Source: Methylophilus sp. 14 (GTDB taxonomy: Bacteria; Pseudomonadota; Gammaproteobacteria; Burkholderiales; Methylophilaceae). Taken from it: DNA of 64,000 nucleotides. Positions 6,822-59,691 of this stretch are shown here, piece by piece. Positions within the stretch are counted from its first letter, which is position 1. Each line of letters begins with the position of its first letter. The notes beneath the pieces are model-generated. The model did no database searches, was not told the origin of the DNA, and saw nothing but the letters and a program-made list of their open reading frames with translations. The translations under genes and the position numbers were made by a program. The DNA is taken from the NCBI RefSeq assembly GCF_015354345.1, contig NZ_JADKYS010000004.1, positions 1 to 64,000 of the forward strand, in the 5' to 3' direction.

Positions 6822-7753
6822 AACGGTTTGTTCAGCACCTTGATGATTTTATCCACCAGCGAACCGCGCGGGTCTTCTACCACGCGGATGCCGATCATTT
6901 TTTTCTGTAATGAGAACACGCTTTGCGGCCGAGACAAATAATCCAGCTGCATGCATTCATCAATAATCGCCAGCAATTTCTCAGAGTATATCTGTTTACC
7001 GAGCTCAATCGCAGGCACCAGCGTATCATTTTTCAGGCGCAAATTGGCTGAGACGGGCGATGCGCGTTGCAAACAGGCATACATGCTGGCGCCTATGCTG
7101 TAAATATCACTCCATGGGCCCAGGTGTTTGCGGTCTATGTATTGCTCGGGCGGCGCAAACCCCGGCGTGTACGTCGGTGCCAATGTCACCTCAGACAAGG
7201 CCTGGCGCGCCGATCCGAAGTCCAGCAGCATGGGCGAACCATCGAGGCGGATATAAATATTGGCCGGTTTGATATCCAGGTGCAGCAGTTTGCGCGTATG
7301 CACCTCGCGCAAGCCATTGAGCAACTCGACAAACATGCGGATCAGGAAACTCTCAGGCACCGGCTGTGACAAGGCCATGATGTAATCTTGCAGCGACTTG
7401 CCGCGCTCATACTTCATCACCATGTAAACGGTATTGTTGGCGCGGAAGAAGTTTTTCACGCGCACAATGTTTTTGTGCTCAATATTGGCCAGCGCCAGGC
7501 CTTCTTCAAAAAAGCACTTCATGCCATGTTTGTAGGCGGCTTCATTTTTGCCGTTGGAACGAATATGCGTATGTTCATCACGTTCAGCCAGCGTCACCGG
7601 CATATATTCTTTAATGGCAACGGTGTTTTTTTGCGGATCTTGCGCCAGATAGACGAAACTAAACCCGCCCAGACTCAGCACCCGTGTAATGGTGTAGTCA
7701 TGTAGCGCAGTGCCTACCGGCAAGGCAAAATCGAATTTATTAGAAAGCTTCAC
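6818..7753 (-). CDS. Hanks-type serine/threonine protein kinase
   Basis: This 311-residue eukaryotic-like kinase has no visible membrane segment. Seen in order are a Gly-rich loop (SLGGFSFVY, about 27-35), the ATP-binding Lys48 in VAIKEY, the catalytic loop HLDIKPAN with Asp160 and Asn165, the DFG at about 178-180, and the activation-segment end TPGFAPPEQ. The catalytic loop reads HLD rather than HRD, marking a non-RD kinase, which usually does not need activation-loop phosphorylation (family knowledge). It is the first gene of the kinase-phosphatase-rph-rdgB run. Confidence 0.92.
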   Translation of the reverse strand: MKLSNKFDFALPVGTALHDYTITRVLSLGGFSFVYLAQDPQKNTVAIKEYMPVTLAERDEHTHIRSNGKNEAAYKHGMKCFFEEGLALANIEHKNIVRVKNFFRANNTVYMVMKYERGKSLQDYIMALSQPVPESFLIRMFVELLNGLREVHTRKLLHLDIKPANIYIRLDGSPMLLDFGSARQALSEVTLAPTYTPGFAPPEQYIDRKHLGPWSDIYSIGASMYACLQRASPVSANLRLKNDTLVPAIELGKQIYSEKLLAIIDECMQLDYLSRPQSVFSLQKKMIGIRVVEDPRGSLVDKIIKVLNKPL

Positions 7754-7922
7754 TAACGCTTTAACGTCACAATCATGGCTTTTTTAAGGGAAACCCTGCA
7801 TTCAATCACTTGCCATACCACCACAAGCGCGGGTTTCTTTTATCTGAGTGCTATTTTCGCATATCGATAGCGCATTTGATACAATCGCCCAGTTTGCCCG
7901 GAGACGCAAGGTAGCTACGAAA

Positions 7923-8810
7923 ATGACGACAAAAAAAACCAACAACCAACCTATTTTAAGCATGACCGGCTTTGCTGCAAGTGAAGCCCGTTTTCCTGGC
8001 GGCCTGCTGCTGATCGAACTGCGGGCAGTGAATCATCGCTACCTTGAGCTCAATGTCAAAATTGAAGACAGCCTGCGCCAGTTCGAAGCGCAAATTCGCG
8101 AACAATTACAGACAAGGCTCGGTCGCGGCAAAATCGAATGCCGCATGAGCCTCAAGAGTGACAACGCAGCCACGACACTGGCGCTCAACCCGGCCATGGT
8201 GGCGCAAATTGCACAAACGCTCAGCGAGCTGCAACAACATTTTCCGCAAGCGCAACCGATCAACCTGGTCGACGTGTTCAAACTGCCCGGCGTCTTGCAA
8301 ACCGAAGCAGTGGATGCCGAAGCCATGGCACAAGGTGTACAAACCGGCCTGTCACGCGGCATTGATGAACTGATTGCTGCACGAGCACGTGAAGGCGAAA
8401 AACTCAAACAGGTATTACTCGACCGCCTGCAAGGCGTGCGTGAGCAAATCAGCATTGTGAAACCCCTGCTACCCACGCTGGTGAGCCAATACCAGGAAAA
8501 ACTGACGGCCAAACTGCGCGAAGCCATGCAAGCCGATGACGACCGTGTGCGCCAGGAAATCGTACTCTACGCACAACGTATTGATGTAGACGAAGAGCTG
8601 GCACGCCTGCAATCTCATATCATTGAAATGGACCGCATCCTCAGTGCTGGGGGAGCTATGGGCAAAAAGCTGGACTTTTTAATGCAGGAAATGAACCGTG
8701 AAGCCAATACGCTGGGGTCAAAATCTGTCGCGATTGAAACCACGCAAGTCTCCATGCAGCTCAAAGTGCTGATCGAACAAATGCGCGAGCAGATCCAGAA
8801 CATTGAATAA
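7923..8810 (+). CDS. yicC: YicC/YloC family endoribonuclease
   Basis: This 295-residue protein has the YicC N-terminal signature SMTGFA followed by ELRAVNHRYLEL, and the conserved C-terminal half (GKKLDFLMQEMNREANTLGSKS). YicC-type proteins are reported as endoribonucleases involved in RNA turnover. The chosen ATG at 7923 gives a short leader before the SMTGFA core; an upstream in-frame ATG at 7848 would add 25 atypical residues. In many proteobacteria yicC sits beside gmk or rph; here it is divergent from the kinase-rph run and 4 kb before gmk. Confidence 0.9.
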   Translation: MTTKKTNNQPILSMTGFAASEARFPGGLLLIELRAVNHRYLELNVKIEDSLRQFEAQIREQLQTRLGRGKIECRMSLKSDNAATTLALNPAMVAQIAQTLSELQQHFPQAQPINLVDVFKLPGVLQTEAVDAEAMAQGVQTGLSRGIDELIAARAREGEKLKQVLLDRLQGVREQISIVKPLLPTLVSQYQEKLTAKLREAMQADDDRVRQEIVLYAQRIDVDEELARLQSHIIEMDRILSAGGAMGKKLDFLMQEMNREANTLGSKSVAIETTQVSMQLKVLIEQMREQIQNIE

Positions 8811-49666: not shown

Positions 49667-49682
49667 TGTTTCACGTGAAACA
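49667..49682. other. parS site (dnaN-gyrB gap)
   Basis: A perfect 16-bp match to the parS consensus, TGTTTCACGTGAAACA, lies 42 bases upstream of gyrB. It would be bound by ParB (61128-61988) for origin segregation. It is the only one of the three sites here outside a coding region. Confidence 0.9.
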
Positions 49683-55150: not shown

Positions 55151-56495
55151 TCAGGTTTTAAGCATAGACACTATTGCCGCCATTGCGACCGCCCCTGGTG
55201 CTGGCGGCATTGGCGTAGTCAGGGTGTCTGGCCCGTTGGCGGCCAATATCGCAACACAGATTTTAGGCCACTGCCCTGCCCCGCGCCATGCGGCCTATCT
55301 GCCTTTTTTACAAGCCGATACCACGTTAATCGACCGTGGTATCGCTATCTACTTCCCTAATCCACACTCCTACACCGGCGAAGATGTGCTTGAGCTACAA
55401 GGGCATGGCGGCACGGCGCTGATGCAAATTTTGCTGGCGCGTTGCATAGAGTGCGGTGCGCGTCATGCACAAGCGGGTGAATTTACCCAGCGTGCGTATT
55501 TAAATGACAAGCTTGATCTGGCGCAGGCAGAAGCTGTGGCTGACCTGATTAATGCCGCGACGGTAGAAGCCGCACGCAGTGCTGTGCGATCGCTTTCAGG
55601 CGAGTTTTCACAAGCGATACAGACCTTATTGCAACAATTGGTCGATTTGCGCATGTATGTTGAAGCGTGCCTGGATTTTCCTGAAGAAGAGATTGATTTC
55701 ATCACTCAAGGTCGAGTACTTGAGAAATTGCAGGCCAACCAAGCCGCTTTGCAGCATATTTTTCACCAGGCCAGGCAAGGTGTCTTGTTGCGCGAAGGCA
55801 TTAATGTCGTATTAATTGGGCAGCCTAATGTGGGCAAGTCCAGTTTGCTCAACGCCCTGTCTGGCGAAGAAGTGGCGATTGTGACGCCAATTGCCGGTAC
55901 CACGCGCGATACGATCAAAAGCGTGGTCCAGATTGAAGGCGTGCCGCTGCATGTGATTGATACCGCTGGTTTGCGTGAAACTGAAGATACGGTTGAACAA
56001 GTGGGCATTGCACGCACCTGGAAGGCGATAGAAACTGCGCATGTGGCGTTGCTGCTGGTGGATAGCAAGCATGGCATAGGTGCGCAGGAAAAGGCTATTT
56101 TGCACAAACTGCCGCCGGAAGTGAAAAAAGTTTGGGTGCATAACAAGATAGATGTTTCACGTGAAACATCGCGCATTGAAAAACACGAAAATGAGCAACA
56201 CGTGTTTTTATCGGCCAAGACAGGCGATGGTATTGCCAGCCTGCAAAAAACGCTTCTGGAGATTGTGGGTTATCAGCCTGGTGGCGAAGGTGTATTTATG
56301 GCCAGGGCGCGTCATTTACAAGCGCTACAAGAGGTTGAGCAACATCTGGATCAGGCCATGTTGCAAATGCATGCGGCTGAGTTGGTGGCAGAAGAGTTGC
56401 GTTGTGCGCAAGAGGCGCTGGGAACCATTACAGGTGAGTTCACCCCCGACGATTTACTGGGGGAAATTTTCAGCCGTTTTTGTATCGGCAAATAA
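55140..56495 (+). CDS. mnmE: tRNA modification GTPase MnmE
   Basis: This 451-residue GTPase works with MnmG to form the 5-carboxymethylaminomethyl group on wobble U34. The N-terminal folate-binding domain opens with [22 protein letters not shown]. The G1 motif [15 protein letters not shown]3 [10 protein letters not shown] and G4 NKID are intact, and it ends with FCIGK. ATG 55140 overlaps yidC by 11 bases. A perfect parS site lies inside it at 56153-56168, coding for VSRET. Confidence 0.96.
56153..56168. other. parS site inside mnmE
   Basis: A perfect TGTTTCACGTGAAACA is embedded in mnmE, read as part of Asp-Val-Ser-Arg-Glu-Thr just after the G4 motif NKI. It is a likely ParB nucleation site 3.6 kb from dnaA. 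Confidence 0.88.
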
Positions 56496-56520
56496 AAACC
56501 CGCATTAGCGGGTTTTTTTT
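56494..56520. terminator. Bidirectional terminator mnmE / cytochrome b
   Basis: AAAAACCCGC and GCGGGTTTTT form a perfect 10-bp stem with an ATTA loop followed by a run of T. It overlaps the stop of mnmE and the stop of the convergent cytochrome b gene, so both genes end in the same hairpin. Confidence 0.85.
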
Positions 56521-57089
56521 CTTGGGAACGGCGTATTGCGCTCATTAAAGCGCTCATCAATACTGCACACACGCTTGCAGCCGGTAATCATGGCCCAGAT
56601 CAGGTTGTCGTGATTGATAAAACTTTCAAAAATCACCCCGAACACATGCACCACCACCACTGCCAGCCAGGTCCAGGTGGCATAGTGATGTAGTACCTGG
56701 CTCATCTCGTCATCAATGATGCCCCAGCCATTGTTGTAAACGATACAACCCGAGCCAACAGTGATGATACCAAGGCCTAGCATGGCGTAAATGGCAATTG
56801 ACCCGGTTGGGTTGTGGCCAATGTAGTGCCTGGCTGTGCCTTTGAGTAGCTTAAATAGGTGTTTAACTGCCCATACCGGATTCAGTGGAAAGCTGCGAAA
56901 GCTGGCGTAGCCGGTTGCAAGCAATCCCCAGATAATACGCGCGACAATCAGTGTCCCAGCGACATACCCTGCATAAGCATGATGTAGGCGGTCCCACATG
57001 GAGGCGTGGGTATAAAATGCATACCCAAACGCCGCCACTAAAGACCAGTGGAAGATCCTGATGAAAGGATCCCAGACATACCGTAGCAT
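56505..57089 (-). CDS. Cytochrome b561-type membrane protein
   Basis: This 194-residue protein has four hydrophobic segments and the b-type haem pattern of the Ni/Fe-hydrogenase b-subunit/b561 family: FHW near residue 13, RLHHAYAGYVAG, LHHYATWTWLAVVVVHVFG. It would carry electrons between quinol and a periplasmic partner. The SHP-type cytochrome c gene lies 5 bases upstream on the same strand, so the two form a redox pair, as in Rhodobacter where SHP is linked with a b561. Confidence 0.88.
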   Translation of the reverse strand: MLRYVWDPFIRIFHWSLVAAFGYAFYTHASMWDRLHHAYAGYVAGTLIVARIIWGLLATGYASFRSFPLNPVWAVKHLFKLLKGTARHYIGHNPTGSIAIYAMLGLGIITVGSGCIVYNNGWGIIDDEMSQVLHHYATWTWLAVVVVHVFGVIFESFINHDNLIWAMITGCKRVCSIDERFNERNTPFPRKKTR

Positions 57090-57529: not shown

Positions 57530-57604
57530 GGTAAGAGCTCCTTGGTTGTTTTGAAAAAATTCTATTCTTTTTATGTTAAGTAAATATGGCCTGCTTGTAA
57601 TTGA

Positions 57605-57656
57605 TTTGTATTAAACCGTAATAATTTTGTATTAAGACCGTATCAATTCATATTAA
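57605..57656. promoter_or_regulatory. Three 21-bp-spaced direct repeats
   Basis: TTTGTATTAA occurs at 57605 and 57626, and TTCATATTAA at 57647, each exactly 21 bp from the last. The first two also share ACCGTA downstream. Two-turn spacing places all copies on one face of the DNA, as for a dimeric regulator. They lie about 75 bases upstream of the SHP gene start and before mnmG. Confidence 0.6.
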
Positions 57657-57756
57657 AACATGGAACAAGTGTATCAAAGCAGCGAATTAAATGACCATTT
57701 GGTTAGTTTACGCTAAAATCACAATTCTTTTTAAATCAAACAGTTCAAGATTCTTT

Positions 57757-59691
57757 ATGATGGACTTTCCTGATCGATTCGATGTCATTGTGGTGGGTGG
57801 CGGCCATGCCGGTACCGAGGCTGCGCTGGCGGCCGCTCGTATGGGGCAGAAAACGCTGTTGTTAAGCCACAACATTGAAACATTGGGGCAAATGTCCTGT
57901 AACCCTTCTATTGGTGGCATAGGCAAAGGTCACCTAGTGAAAGAGGTTGATGCGCTTGGCGGTGCCATGGCAGCGGCCACTGATGAGGGTGGCATACAGT
58001 TCCGTATCTTGAACTCCAGCAAAGGCCCGGCGGTGCGTGCGACGCGTGCGCAGGCTGATCGTATCCTGTATAAGGCCGCTATTCGTCACCGCCTGGAAAA
58101 CCAGCCTAACCTGTGGCTGTTCCAGCAAGCGGTAGATGACATTATTCTGGAAGGCGACAAGGCTGCTGGTGTTGTCACTCAAATCGGCTTGCGTTTTTAC
58201 GCAACATCTGTGGTGTTGACTGCTGGTACTTTCTTGGGTGGTTTGGTGCATGTTGGTTTGCAAAACTATAGCGCTGGTCGCGCCGGAGATCCGCCAGCCA
58301 TCTCGCTTGCTGCGCGCCTGCGTGAAATTGGCCTCCCGGCTGGGCGCTTGAAAACCGGCACCCCTCCCCGCATTGATGGCCGTTCAATTGATTATAGTGT
58401 GATGACTGAGCAGCCTGGTGATACGCCAGTACCGGTGTTTTCGTTTTTAGGCAATGCAGCACAACACCCGCAGCAATTACCTTGCTGGATTACCCATACC
58501 AATCAACAAACCCATGACATTATCCGCAGCGGTCTGGACCGCTCGCCCATGTACACTGGCGTCATTGAGGGTGTGGGGCCGCGTTATTGTCCTTCGGTAG
58601 AAGATAAGATTCACCGCTTTGCAGATAAGGAATCGCACCAGGTGTTTCTGGAGCCTGAAGGTTTAACCACGCACGAAATTTATCCTAACGGTATTTCTAC
58701 CAGTCTGCCGTTTGATATTCAGCTGGCGCTGGTGCGTTCTATTCGTGGGTTGGAGCATGCGCACATCCTGCGCCCCGGATATGCCATTGAATACGACTAC
58801 TATGATCCTCGCGGTTTAAAATCGACTCTTGAAACCAAGACGGTTCGCGGCCTGTTTTTTGCGGGTCAAATCAATGGTACTACTGGTTATGAAGAGGCGG
58901 CGGCCCAAGGGTTGCTGGCGGGTGCAAATGCGGCATTGTTTGCGCAGGACAAAGAAGGCTGGTGCCCTTCCCGTGAGCAGGCCTACCTAGGTGTGTTGGT
59001 GGATGATCTGATTACTACGGGTGTTAATGAGCCCTACCGCATGTTTACCAGTCGCGCTGAGTACCGCCTGCAGTTGCGTGAGGATAATGCCGATATGCGC
59101 TTGACTGAAAAGGGTCGCGAGCTGGGGTTGGTGGATGATGTGCGTTGGGAGGCTTTCTGTAAAAAACAGGAAGCGGTGGCGCGTGAGCAAGCCAGGTTGA
59201 AGCGTACTTTTTTGCAGCCAGATAACGGTCAACCCGCAGGTCAGCATACCATTGTTTCACGTGAAACACAGCTAGCCGTTTTTGGTAAGCCTTTGGATCA
59301 TGAGTATTCCTTGTTCGAATTATTGCGTCGGCCAGAAATTGCTTATCAGTCACTGTTGGACTTGGTGCCTGCCCCAGAAGTGTTGGCTGGGGATGTCTTG
59401 GAGCAAGTGGAAATCGCAGCCAAGTATCAAGGGTATATTGATAGGCAGAATGAAGAAATCTCGCGCCAGAAAAATAGTGAGAACATTAAACTAGGGGATG
59501 CGATCGATTACAACGATGTGCATGGCCTGAGTAATGAGGCGCGCCAGAAATTGTTAGCACAAAAACCGGAAACGATAGGTCAGGCCAGTCGCATACAAGG
59601 CATTACCCCGGCGACGATTTCACTGTTGCTGGTTTATCTCAAGCGTAAACATAAAAAGCAAAGCCAGTCTGGCGATATTGCAGCCGCATGA
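57757..59691 (+). CDS. mnmG: tRNA modification enzyme MnmG (GidA)
   Basis: This 644-residue FAD enzyme partners MnmE in U34 modification. It has the FAD dinucleotide motif [35 protein letters not shown], and the C-terminal [23 protein letters not shown] used the ATG at 57757; the next codon is also ATG. No strong ribosome binding site is visible. It overlaps rsmG by 4 bases. A perfect parS lies inside at 59253-59268. Confidence 0.95.
59253..59268. other. parS site inside mnmG
   Basis: A perfect TGTTTCACGTGAAACA lies in mnmG, read as part of Ile-Val-Ser-Arg-Glu-Thr. It is the third parS in the window, about 1.9 kb from parB. Confidence 0.88.

Follow-up and report, generated by a model that had tools for sequence, protein, structure and literature searches.

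A helically phased direct-repeat array upstream of a Methylophilus cytochrome c''-type gene is probably an operator laid out like OmpR/PhoB-family sites

The window analysed here, a 64,000-nucleotide stretch of the 3.0-Mb genome of the methanol-consuming bacterium Methylophilus sp. 14, carries, to judge from its open reading frames, the gene order gyrB-dnaN-dnaA ... rnpA-yidC-mnmE, a cytochrome b gene and an SHP-family gene (both on the minus strand), and mnmG-rsmG-parA-parB. The SHP-family protein matched the cytochrome c'' of M. methylotrophus (PDB 1e8e_A; E = 4.2e-81, residues 20–143, a 124-residue match) and the R. sphaeroides structure 1dw0 (E = 4.7e-14); by sequence, the product is an ortholog of M. 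methylotrophus cytochrome c'', a member of the SHP (sphaeroides haem protein) family. The cytochrome b561-type gene directly downstream probably belongs to the same operon. The region also contains three perfect parS sites (TGTTTCACGTGAAACA), at 49667–49682 between gyrB and dnaN, at 56153–56168 in mnmE and at 59253–59268 in mnmG.

The 228-bp, 28% GC gap separating the SHP-family gene from mnmG contains TATTAA on the plus strand at 57609, 57630 and 57651, that is, in two exact 21-bp steps, confirming the three copies phased at exactly 21 bp that an initial annotation of this DNA had reported. As to its argument that such exact spacing is not due to chance, any 6-mer was present three times at one equal spacing (15–60 bp) in 0.7% of 3,000 dinucleotide shuffles of the intergenic region. 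For TATTAA-N15-TATTAA, a post hoc pattern, the window has two occurrences where 0.02 would be expected. Beyond TATTAA itself the copies agree only in part: identity between the first two 21-mers is 76%, the third copy has a different flank (ATATTAA versus GTATTAA), and TATCAA occurs additionally at 57641 and 57672 in the same gap. TATYAA pairs with 15–16 bp between them matched 11 times in the same genome, with overlapping matches only at these repeats.

On the minus strand, we found nine half-sites spaced 10–11 bp, extending over 57574–57676 and running into a conserved promoter element (Table 1). The mean step between half-sites is 10.7 bp, the turn at 57660 is degenerate, and the two most promoter-proximal half-sites only loosely resemble those upstream. 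A 10.5-bp period was detected in the window sequence with a scan-corrected shuffle p of 0.0005, and across six single sequences the scan-corrected p was 0.0005–0.033 in five and 0.15 in the sixth. The basic repeat unit is about 10.5 bp, not 21 bp. The array shares two features of OmpR/PhoB-family operator layout: at least two direct repeats at 10–11 bp on one helix face, and a proximal half-site some 10 nt ahead of the -10 box, here in the form CTTAACA-N9-TAnnAT.

Table 1. Features of the cytochrome locus and its upstream region in the window; the lower coordinate of each half-site is taken as its start.
Feature	Position	Coordinates	Strand	Remarks
Cytochrome b561-type gene		56505..57089	-	directly downstream of the SHP-family gene; PF01292, E = 1.7e-19
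SHP-family monohaem cytochrome, 144 aa		57095..57529	-	PF09086 (DUF1924), E = 5.2e-34
-10 box TAGAAT (ATTCTA on the plus strand), putative cytochrome promoter		57559..57564	-	29 nt before start codon
Promoter-proximal half-site CTTAACA		57574..57580	-	9 nt upstream of -10 box
Half-site GGCCATA	-11	57585..57591	-	counterpart of xGAAATA / GTCATA / GACACA in other loci
Half-site AATTACA	-22	57596..57602	-	AATTACA or AATAACA in 11 aligned same-genus loci
Half-site TAATACA	-33	57607..57613	-	first TATTAA repeat
Half-site TATTACG	-43	57617..57623	-	from the sequence and the same-genus alignment
Half-site TAATACA	-54	57628..57634	-	second TATTAA repeat
Half-site TGATACG	-64	57639..57645	-	inside lineage-specific expansion
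Half-site TAATATG	-75	57649..57655	-	third TATTAA repeat
Outlying half-site TGATACA	-96	57670..57676	-	beyond degenerate turn
mnmG promoter-like pair ATGACC-N17-TAAAAT		57691..57719	+	consensus scan (2 found, 1.6 expected by chance); outside the array

A search of 101 related genomes matched the protein 63 times, in 52 genomes. We read 51 of the matched genes, 39 being of a Methylophilaceae type, at 38 loci (L009–L046), and 12 of another type (L047–L058), six of these also within Methylophilaceae. Locus L044 carries two SHP-family genes, and at L026, L027, L028, L032, L039, L041, L043, L044 and L046 no cytochrome b561 gene was detected alongside the SHP-family gene in the stretch retrieved. 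The conserved element lies next to the cytochrome gene, at 57559–57602 in the window, and its coding-strand consensus reads G-N2-A-Y-A-ATTT-nTTAACA-N9-TAnnAT. Its core, CTTAACA-N9-TAnnAT, was present upstream of 30 of the 39 Methylophilaceae-type genes, comprising 17/17 within the genus and 13/22 outside it, over nine genera; all nine genes at which it was not detected are outside the genus. It was absent at the 12 other-type loci, where a single chance-level match, in L055, lay away from the gene.

We replaced a by-eye promoter alignment (ATTACAAGCAGGCCATATTTA) with an anchor picked by score and backed by columns -10 and -7 as well as by two new loci. Columns outside the anchoring are conserved too, with G at -10 in 12/15 divergent and 14/14 close loci and A at -7 in 29/29 loci. 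The -10 box has A at both +17 and +20 and T at +21 in 29/29 aligned loci, and CTTAACA is found in 14/14 close same-genus loci, although both belong to the anchoring reference. The 15 divergent rows include two same-genus members, L024 and L025, the latter anchored by hand. The reference for the helical-phase analysis was built from the loci tested, so that the 27 of 39 reaching p < 0.05 is a circular count; against the same reference, two of 11 other-type rows reached p < 0.05 (one row with masked bases was dropped). L023 fails the reference test only through a misplaced start codon, and the same contig, as L234, matches at E = 3.2e-7. By eye, TGGCA-N-GC, spaced like a sigma-54 promoter as judged from the consensus for that class, overlaps the element in L028, L029, L031, L032, L034, L037 and L042, loci that belong to several other genera. 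We set this sigma-54 reading of the seven loci aside, since loci without TGGCA-N-GC retain the TAnnAT box.

A sequence-only profile of the promoter (19 rows) gave a single strong match in the window's own genome (E = 1.3e-6; next 0.139), and a regulon reading based on it was abandoned because the genome holds no second strong site. Among genomes with an SHP-family gene, 12/12 matched at the gene (E = 2.8e-4 or better), ten of them belonging to the training set of the profile and two being same-genus. Four loci were new to the profile: L238 (E = 4.7e-8) and L239 (E = 9.6e-7) matched it, and L237 and L241 (Rhodospirillaceae) did not. No match below E = 0.10 was found in six of eight genomes without the gene; in the other two, G034 (E = 3.4e-4) and G042 (E = 0.0011), the element occurs once per genome, before other, apparently secreted, proteins (L134 1501–1545 and L135 1501–1534). 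A separate spaced-repeat match with one mismatch, about 240–270 bp upstream of a gene that we take to be eptA, was dropped, as the reversed pattern, run as a control, matched more often (31 times) than the pattern itself (19).

TATTAA recurs at 21 bp in 13 of the 17 same-genus loci; the second copy has one mismatch in L019, the spacing is 32 rather than 21 bp in L022 (G002, Methylophilus sp. Leaf416), with an apparent 11-bp insertion, and no TATTAA pair is present in L024 or L025. The third copy, together with a 21-bp longer region, was found only in the window and in L010 (Methylophilus sp. QUAN), 2/17 same-genus loci, and this distribution identifies it as a recent lineage-specific 21-bp duplication. 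The initial expectation that relatives with the same operon would keep the repeats thus holds for the two-copy form and almost entirely fails for the third copy.

This pattern raises the alternative that function is confined to the promoter element beside the cytochrome gene, the TATTAA repeats upstream being a neutral AT-rich tandem duplication. The restriction of the third copy and longer region to two genomes and the missing pair in L024 and L025 would fit it, as would the divergent loci, which have the element but show at most weak upstream autocorrelation at 11 and 21 bp (0.32–0.33 versus 0.24–0.32 at other lags). We nevertheless consider neutral duplication quite improbable, given how widely the two-copy form is retained in the genus. 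Columns -54 to +6 are also less variable than columns -100 to -55 (p = 0.014) in an alignment of 11 of the 17 same-genus loci, from which those with length changes, a duplicate and two divergent ones were excluded, and differences in length amount to whole helical turns (+21 bp in two genomes, 32 versus 21 bp spacing in G002). In the same 11 loci, the lower variability of half-sites relative to linkers reached only p = 0.068, and sliding the mask by half a turn reversed the sign.

The array lies between divergent genes, near dnaA, parAB and the three parS sites, and stops 14 bp short of the -35-like box of mnmG, so that it might instead serve mnmG or origin-region functions such as mnmG promoter activation, ParB loading or replication initiation. 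Five same-genus genomes lack the cytochrome gene, and three of them (G005, G011 and G016) yielded an mnmG locus; G015 and G018 gave no usable one. Some of the gene-less genomes are drafts, G005 being 88% complete. In 330 bp upstream of mnmG in G005, G011 and G016, we found neither TATTAA-N15-TATTAA nor a profile match, yet all three retain a similar mnmG promoter (ATGACG or GTGACG, 17–18 nt, TAAAAT; by eye). As the array is missing from these cytochrome-less genomes, it goes with the cytochrome, upholding the association with the SHP and cytochrome b genes that had been proposed at the outset. The element, moreover, faces the cytochrome gene, and it is present at L029, with mnmG on a different contig, and at L030, roughly 3 kb from mnmG; of the 30 loci L009–L038, 26 had mnmG within the stretch retrieved. 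The parS sequence is a separate one. A role for the array in mnmG expression or at the origin therefore appears highly unlikely. Boxes like the mnmG promoter pair were also seen by eye in other genera, and parS sites lie upstream of mnmG in G005, G011 and G016.

With the array assigned to the cytochrome, we consider it probable, from the sequence comparisons, that the repeats belong to an operator of the cytochrome whose layout resembles that of an OmpR/PhoB-family response-regulator site. According to parts of PMC2909971, SHP operons mostly carry sensor-regulator genes, one kind being QseC-like, and PrrBA, a two-component pair, accounts for part of the regulation of the R. sphaeroides SHP; by analogy, both points would favour a response regulator. 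The same parts of that source state that reduced SHP binds NO, cite an NO dioxygenase activity of the SHP of R. sphaeroides, and describe Methylophilaceae as apparently without the diheme cytochrome. The initial suggestion of oxygen sensing in front of an oxygen-binding cytochrome found no support, as the product matches cytochrome c'' (1E8E), and this M. methylotrophus homolog does not bind oxygen according to the same parts of PMC2909971. A regulator and a kinase were nearby in 11/12 other-type loci (about 5 kb each side where the contig allowed), and no response-regulator gene was seen beside the Methylophilaceae-type genes (about 1.5 kb each side for 30/38 loci).

Ten OmpR-family regulators are encoded in the window's own genome. 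Seven were put to NCBIfam, two of them trimmed at the start, and three reached an equivalog cut-off: PhoB, OmpR and CreB. In the small element-bearing genomes G056 and G024 (96% complete), that Pfam family comprises only the orthologs of PhoB (79% identity) and OmpR (76–78%), so these two remain as candidates if the regulator is a conserved OmpR-family protein. Neither of their site models fits the sequences well. A local PhoB model reached p < 0.05 at 1/15 divergent and 0/5 close loci, TGTCAT half-sites of the Pho-box kind being largely missing, though the 15 divergent loci combined gave a Fisher p of 0.007 (0.35 for the five close ones); the model recovers 27/27 phoB promoters, which are its own source. 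An E. coli OmpR model, built from ten half-sites of that distant species, reached p < 0.05 at 1/15 divergent and 1/5 close loci (Fisher p = 0.18 and 0.38), and it is not empty of power, since it finds 13/27 phoB promoters. In 27 phoB loci (99 kb), eight of nine weak profile matches fell within about 190 bp upstream of phoB on the coding strand, in 7/27 loci (best E = 0.026), the ninth (L188) being on the opposite strand; 29 PstS-family loci, 22 of them below the cut-off of the family, gave no profile match. By eye, many phoB promoters of the family (L162–L188) combine their Pho box with an upstream pair of GTTACA type, spaced about 10 bp, and with a GGCAAT motif, which may represent a site for a second regulator.

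The poor fit of both response-regulator models leaves some room for an operator of the cytochrome gene bound by another regulator family, an activator or repressor that, like BldC, assembles head to tail into filaments on AT-rich direct repeats. Half-site number here varies by lineage and the letters are degenerate, as described for BldC in parts of PMC5859096. The BldC repeats reported there are spaced 9 bp, against 10–11 bp in this array, and the N9 distance to the -10 box and the match to the phoB promoter layout would not be expected of such a protein, which makes this explanation unlikely.

For an operator of the OmpR/PhoB type, the repeats would form the upstream part of the regulatory region of the cytochrome c''/cytochrome b promoter on the minus strand, directed away from mnmG. 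A response regulator of this family bound at CTTAACA, 9 nt upstream of the -10 box, would replace a -35 box and could activate transcription, with one head-to-tail dimer for every two half-sites (about 21 bp). As a dimer would span about 21 bp, the 21-bp duplication in the window's lineage would add one dimer site. The cooperative response regulator envisaged by the initial annotation is plausible in modified form: a phased array does precede the SHP-family and cytochrome b genes and is absent from three cytochrome-less genomes, but the basic repeat is about 10.5 bp and the three-copy state is recent. It is possible, though doubtful, that operator strength has been tuned in evolution by gain or loss of whole turns, either 11 bp (a single half-site) or 21 bp (a dimer site), with related Methylophilus species differing in operator length and the regulator gene having moved away from the operon.

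Probably, judging from these comparisons, the locus carries a conserved array of operator sites that has recently gained one unit, an ordinary operator and a further case of an established type. A limited search of the open-access literature aimed at this gene or genus yielded no description of the array. Structures of Methylophilus cytochrome c'' have been solved, and the open-access literature examined gave no role for it; a conserved operator, together with just two candidate regulators should the regulator be a conserved member of the OmpR family, would offer a direct route to the inducing signal and hence to the role of the cytochrome.

Among known systems close to the array in layout are the Pho-box promoters of phoB in Methylophilaceae, in which direct repeats likewise recur at 11 bp and the proximal half-site is separated from the -10 box by 9 nt (TGTCATA-N9-TATAGT); some of them give the weak profile matches described above, in phase (7/27 loci); the half-sites differ, however (TGTCAT versus TTAACA/GAAATA/TAATACA), and the PstS-family loci are without a match. 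The OmpR operators of E. coli ompF and ompC consist, according to parts of PMC7380067, of tandem 20-bp dimer sites with two 10-bp half-sites each, and E. coli half-sites such as TTTACA and GAAACA resemble those found here, but the spacing there is 10 bp, the genes are porin genes, and the E. coli model did not rise above shuffles at our loci. ArcA sites, with two to five direct repeats 11 bp apart centre to centre (parts of PMC3798270), are similar in design, although no ArcA equivalog was found among the seven regulators scanned of ten. Finally, TTAAG-N6-TTAAG, presumably the QseB/PmrA box, is present upstream of 6/12 other-type SHP loci and in 0/39 Methylophilaceae-type upstream regions; at L106 it also stands, by eye, before a -10-like box upstream of a QseB/TctD-like regulator gene (7656–8354, minus strand), suggesting autoregulation. 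In four of the six other-type loci it lies N10 before TATnCT/TAATCT, so that SHP operons with QseBC-type regulators share with the array a direct-repeat box at a similar distance from a -10-like box (4/12 loci), but differ from it in the box itself and in carrying the regulator genes within the gene cluster.
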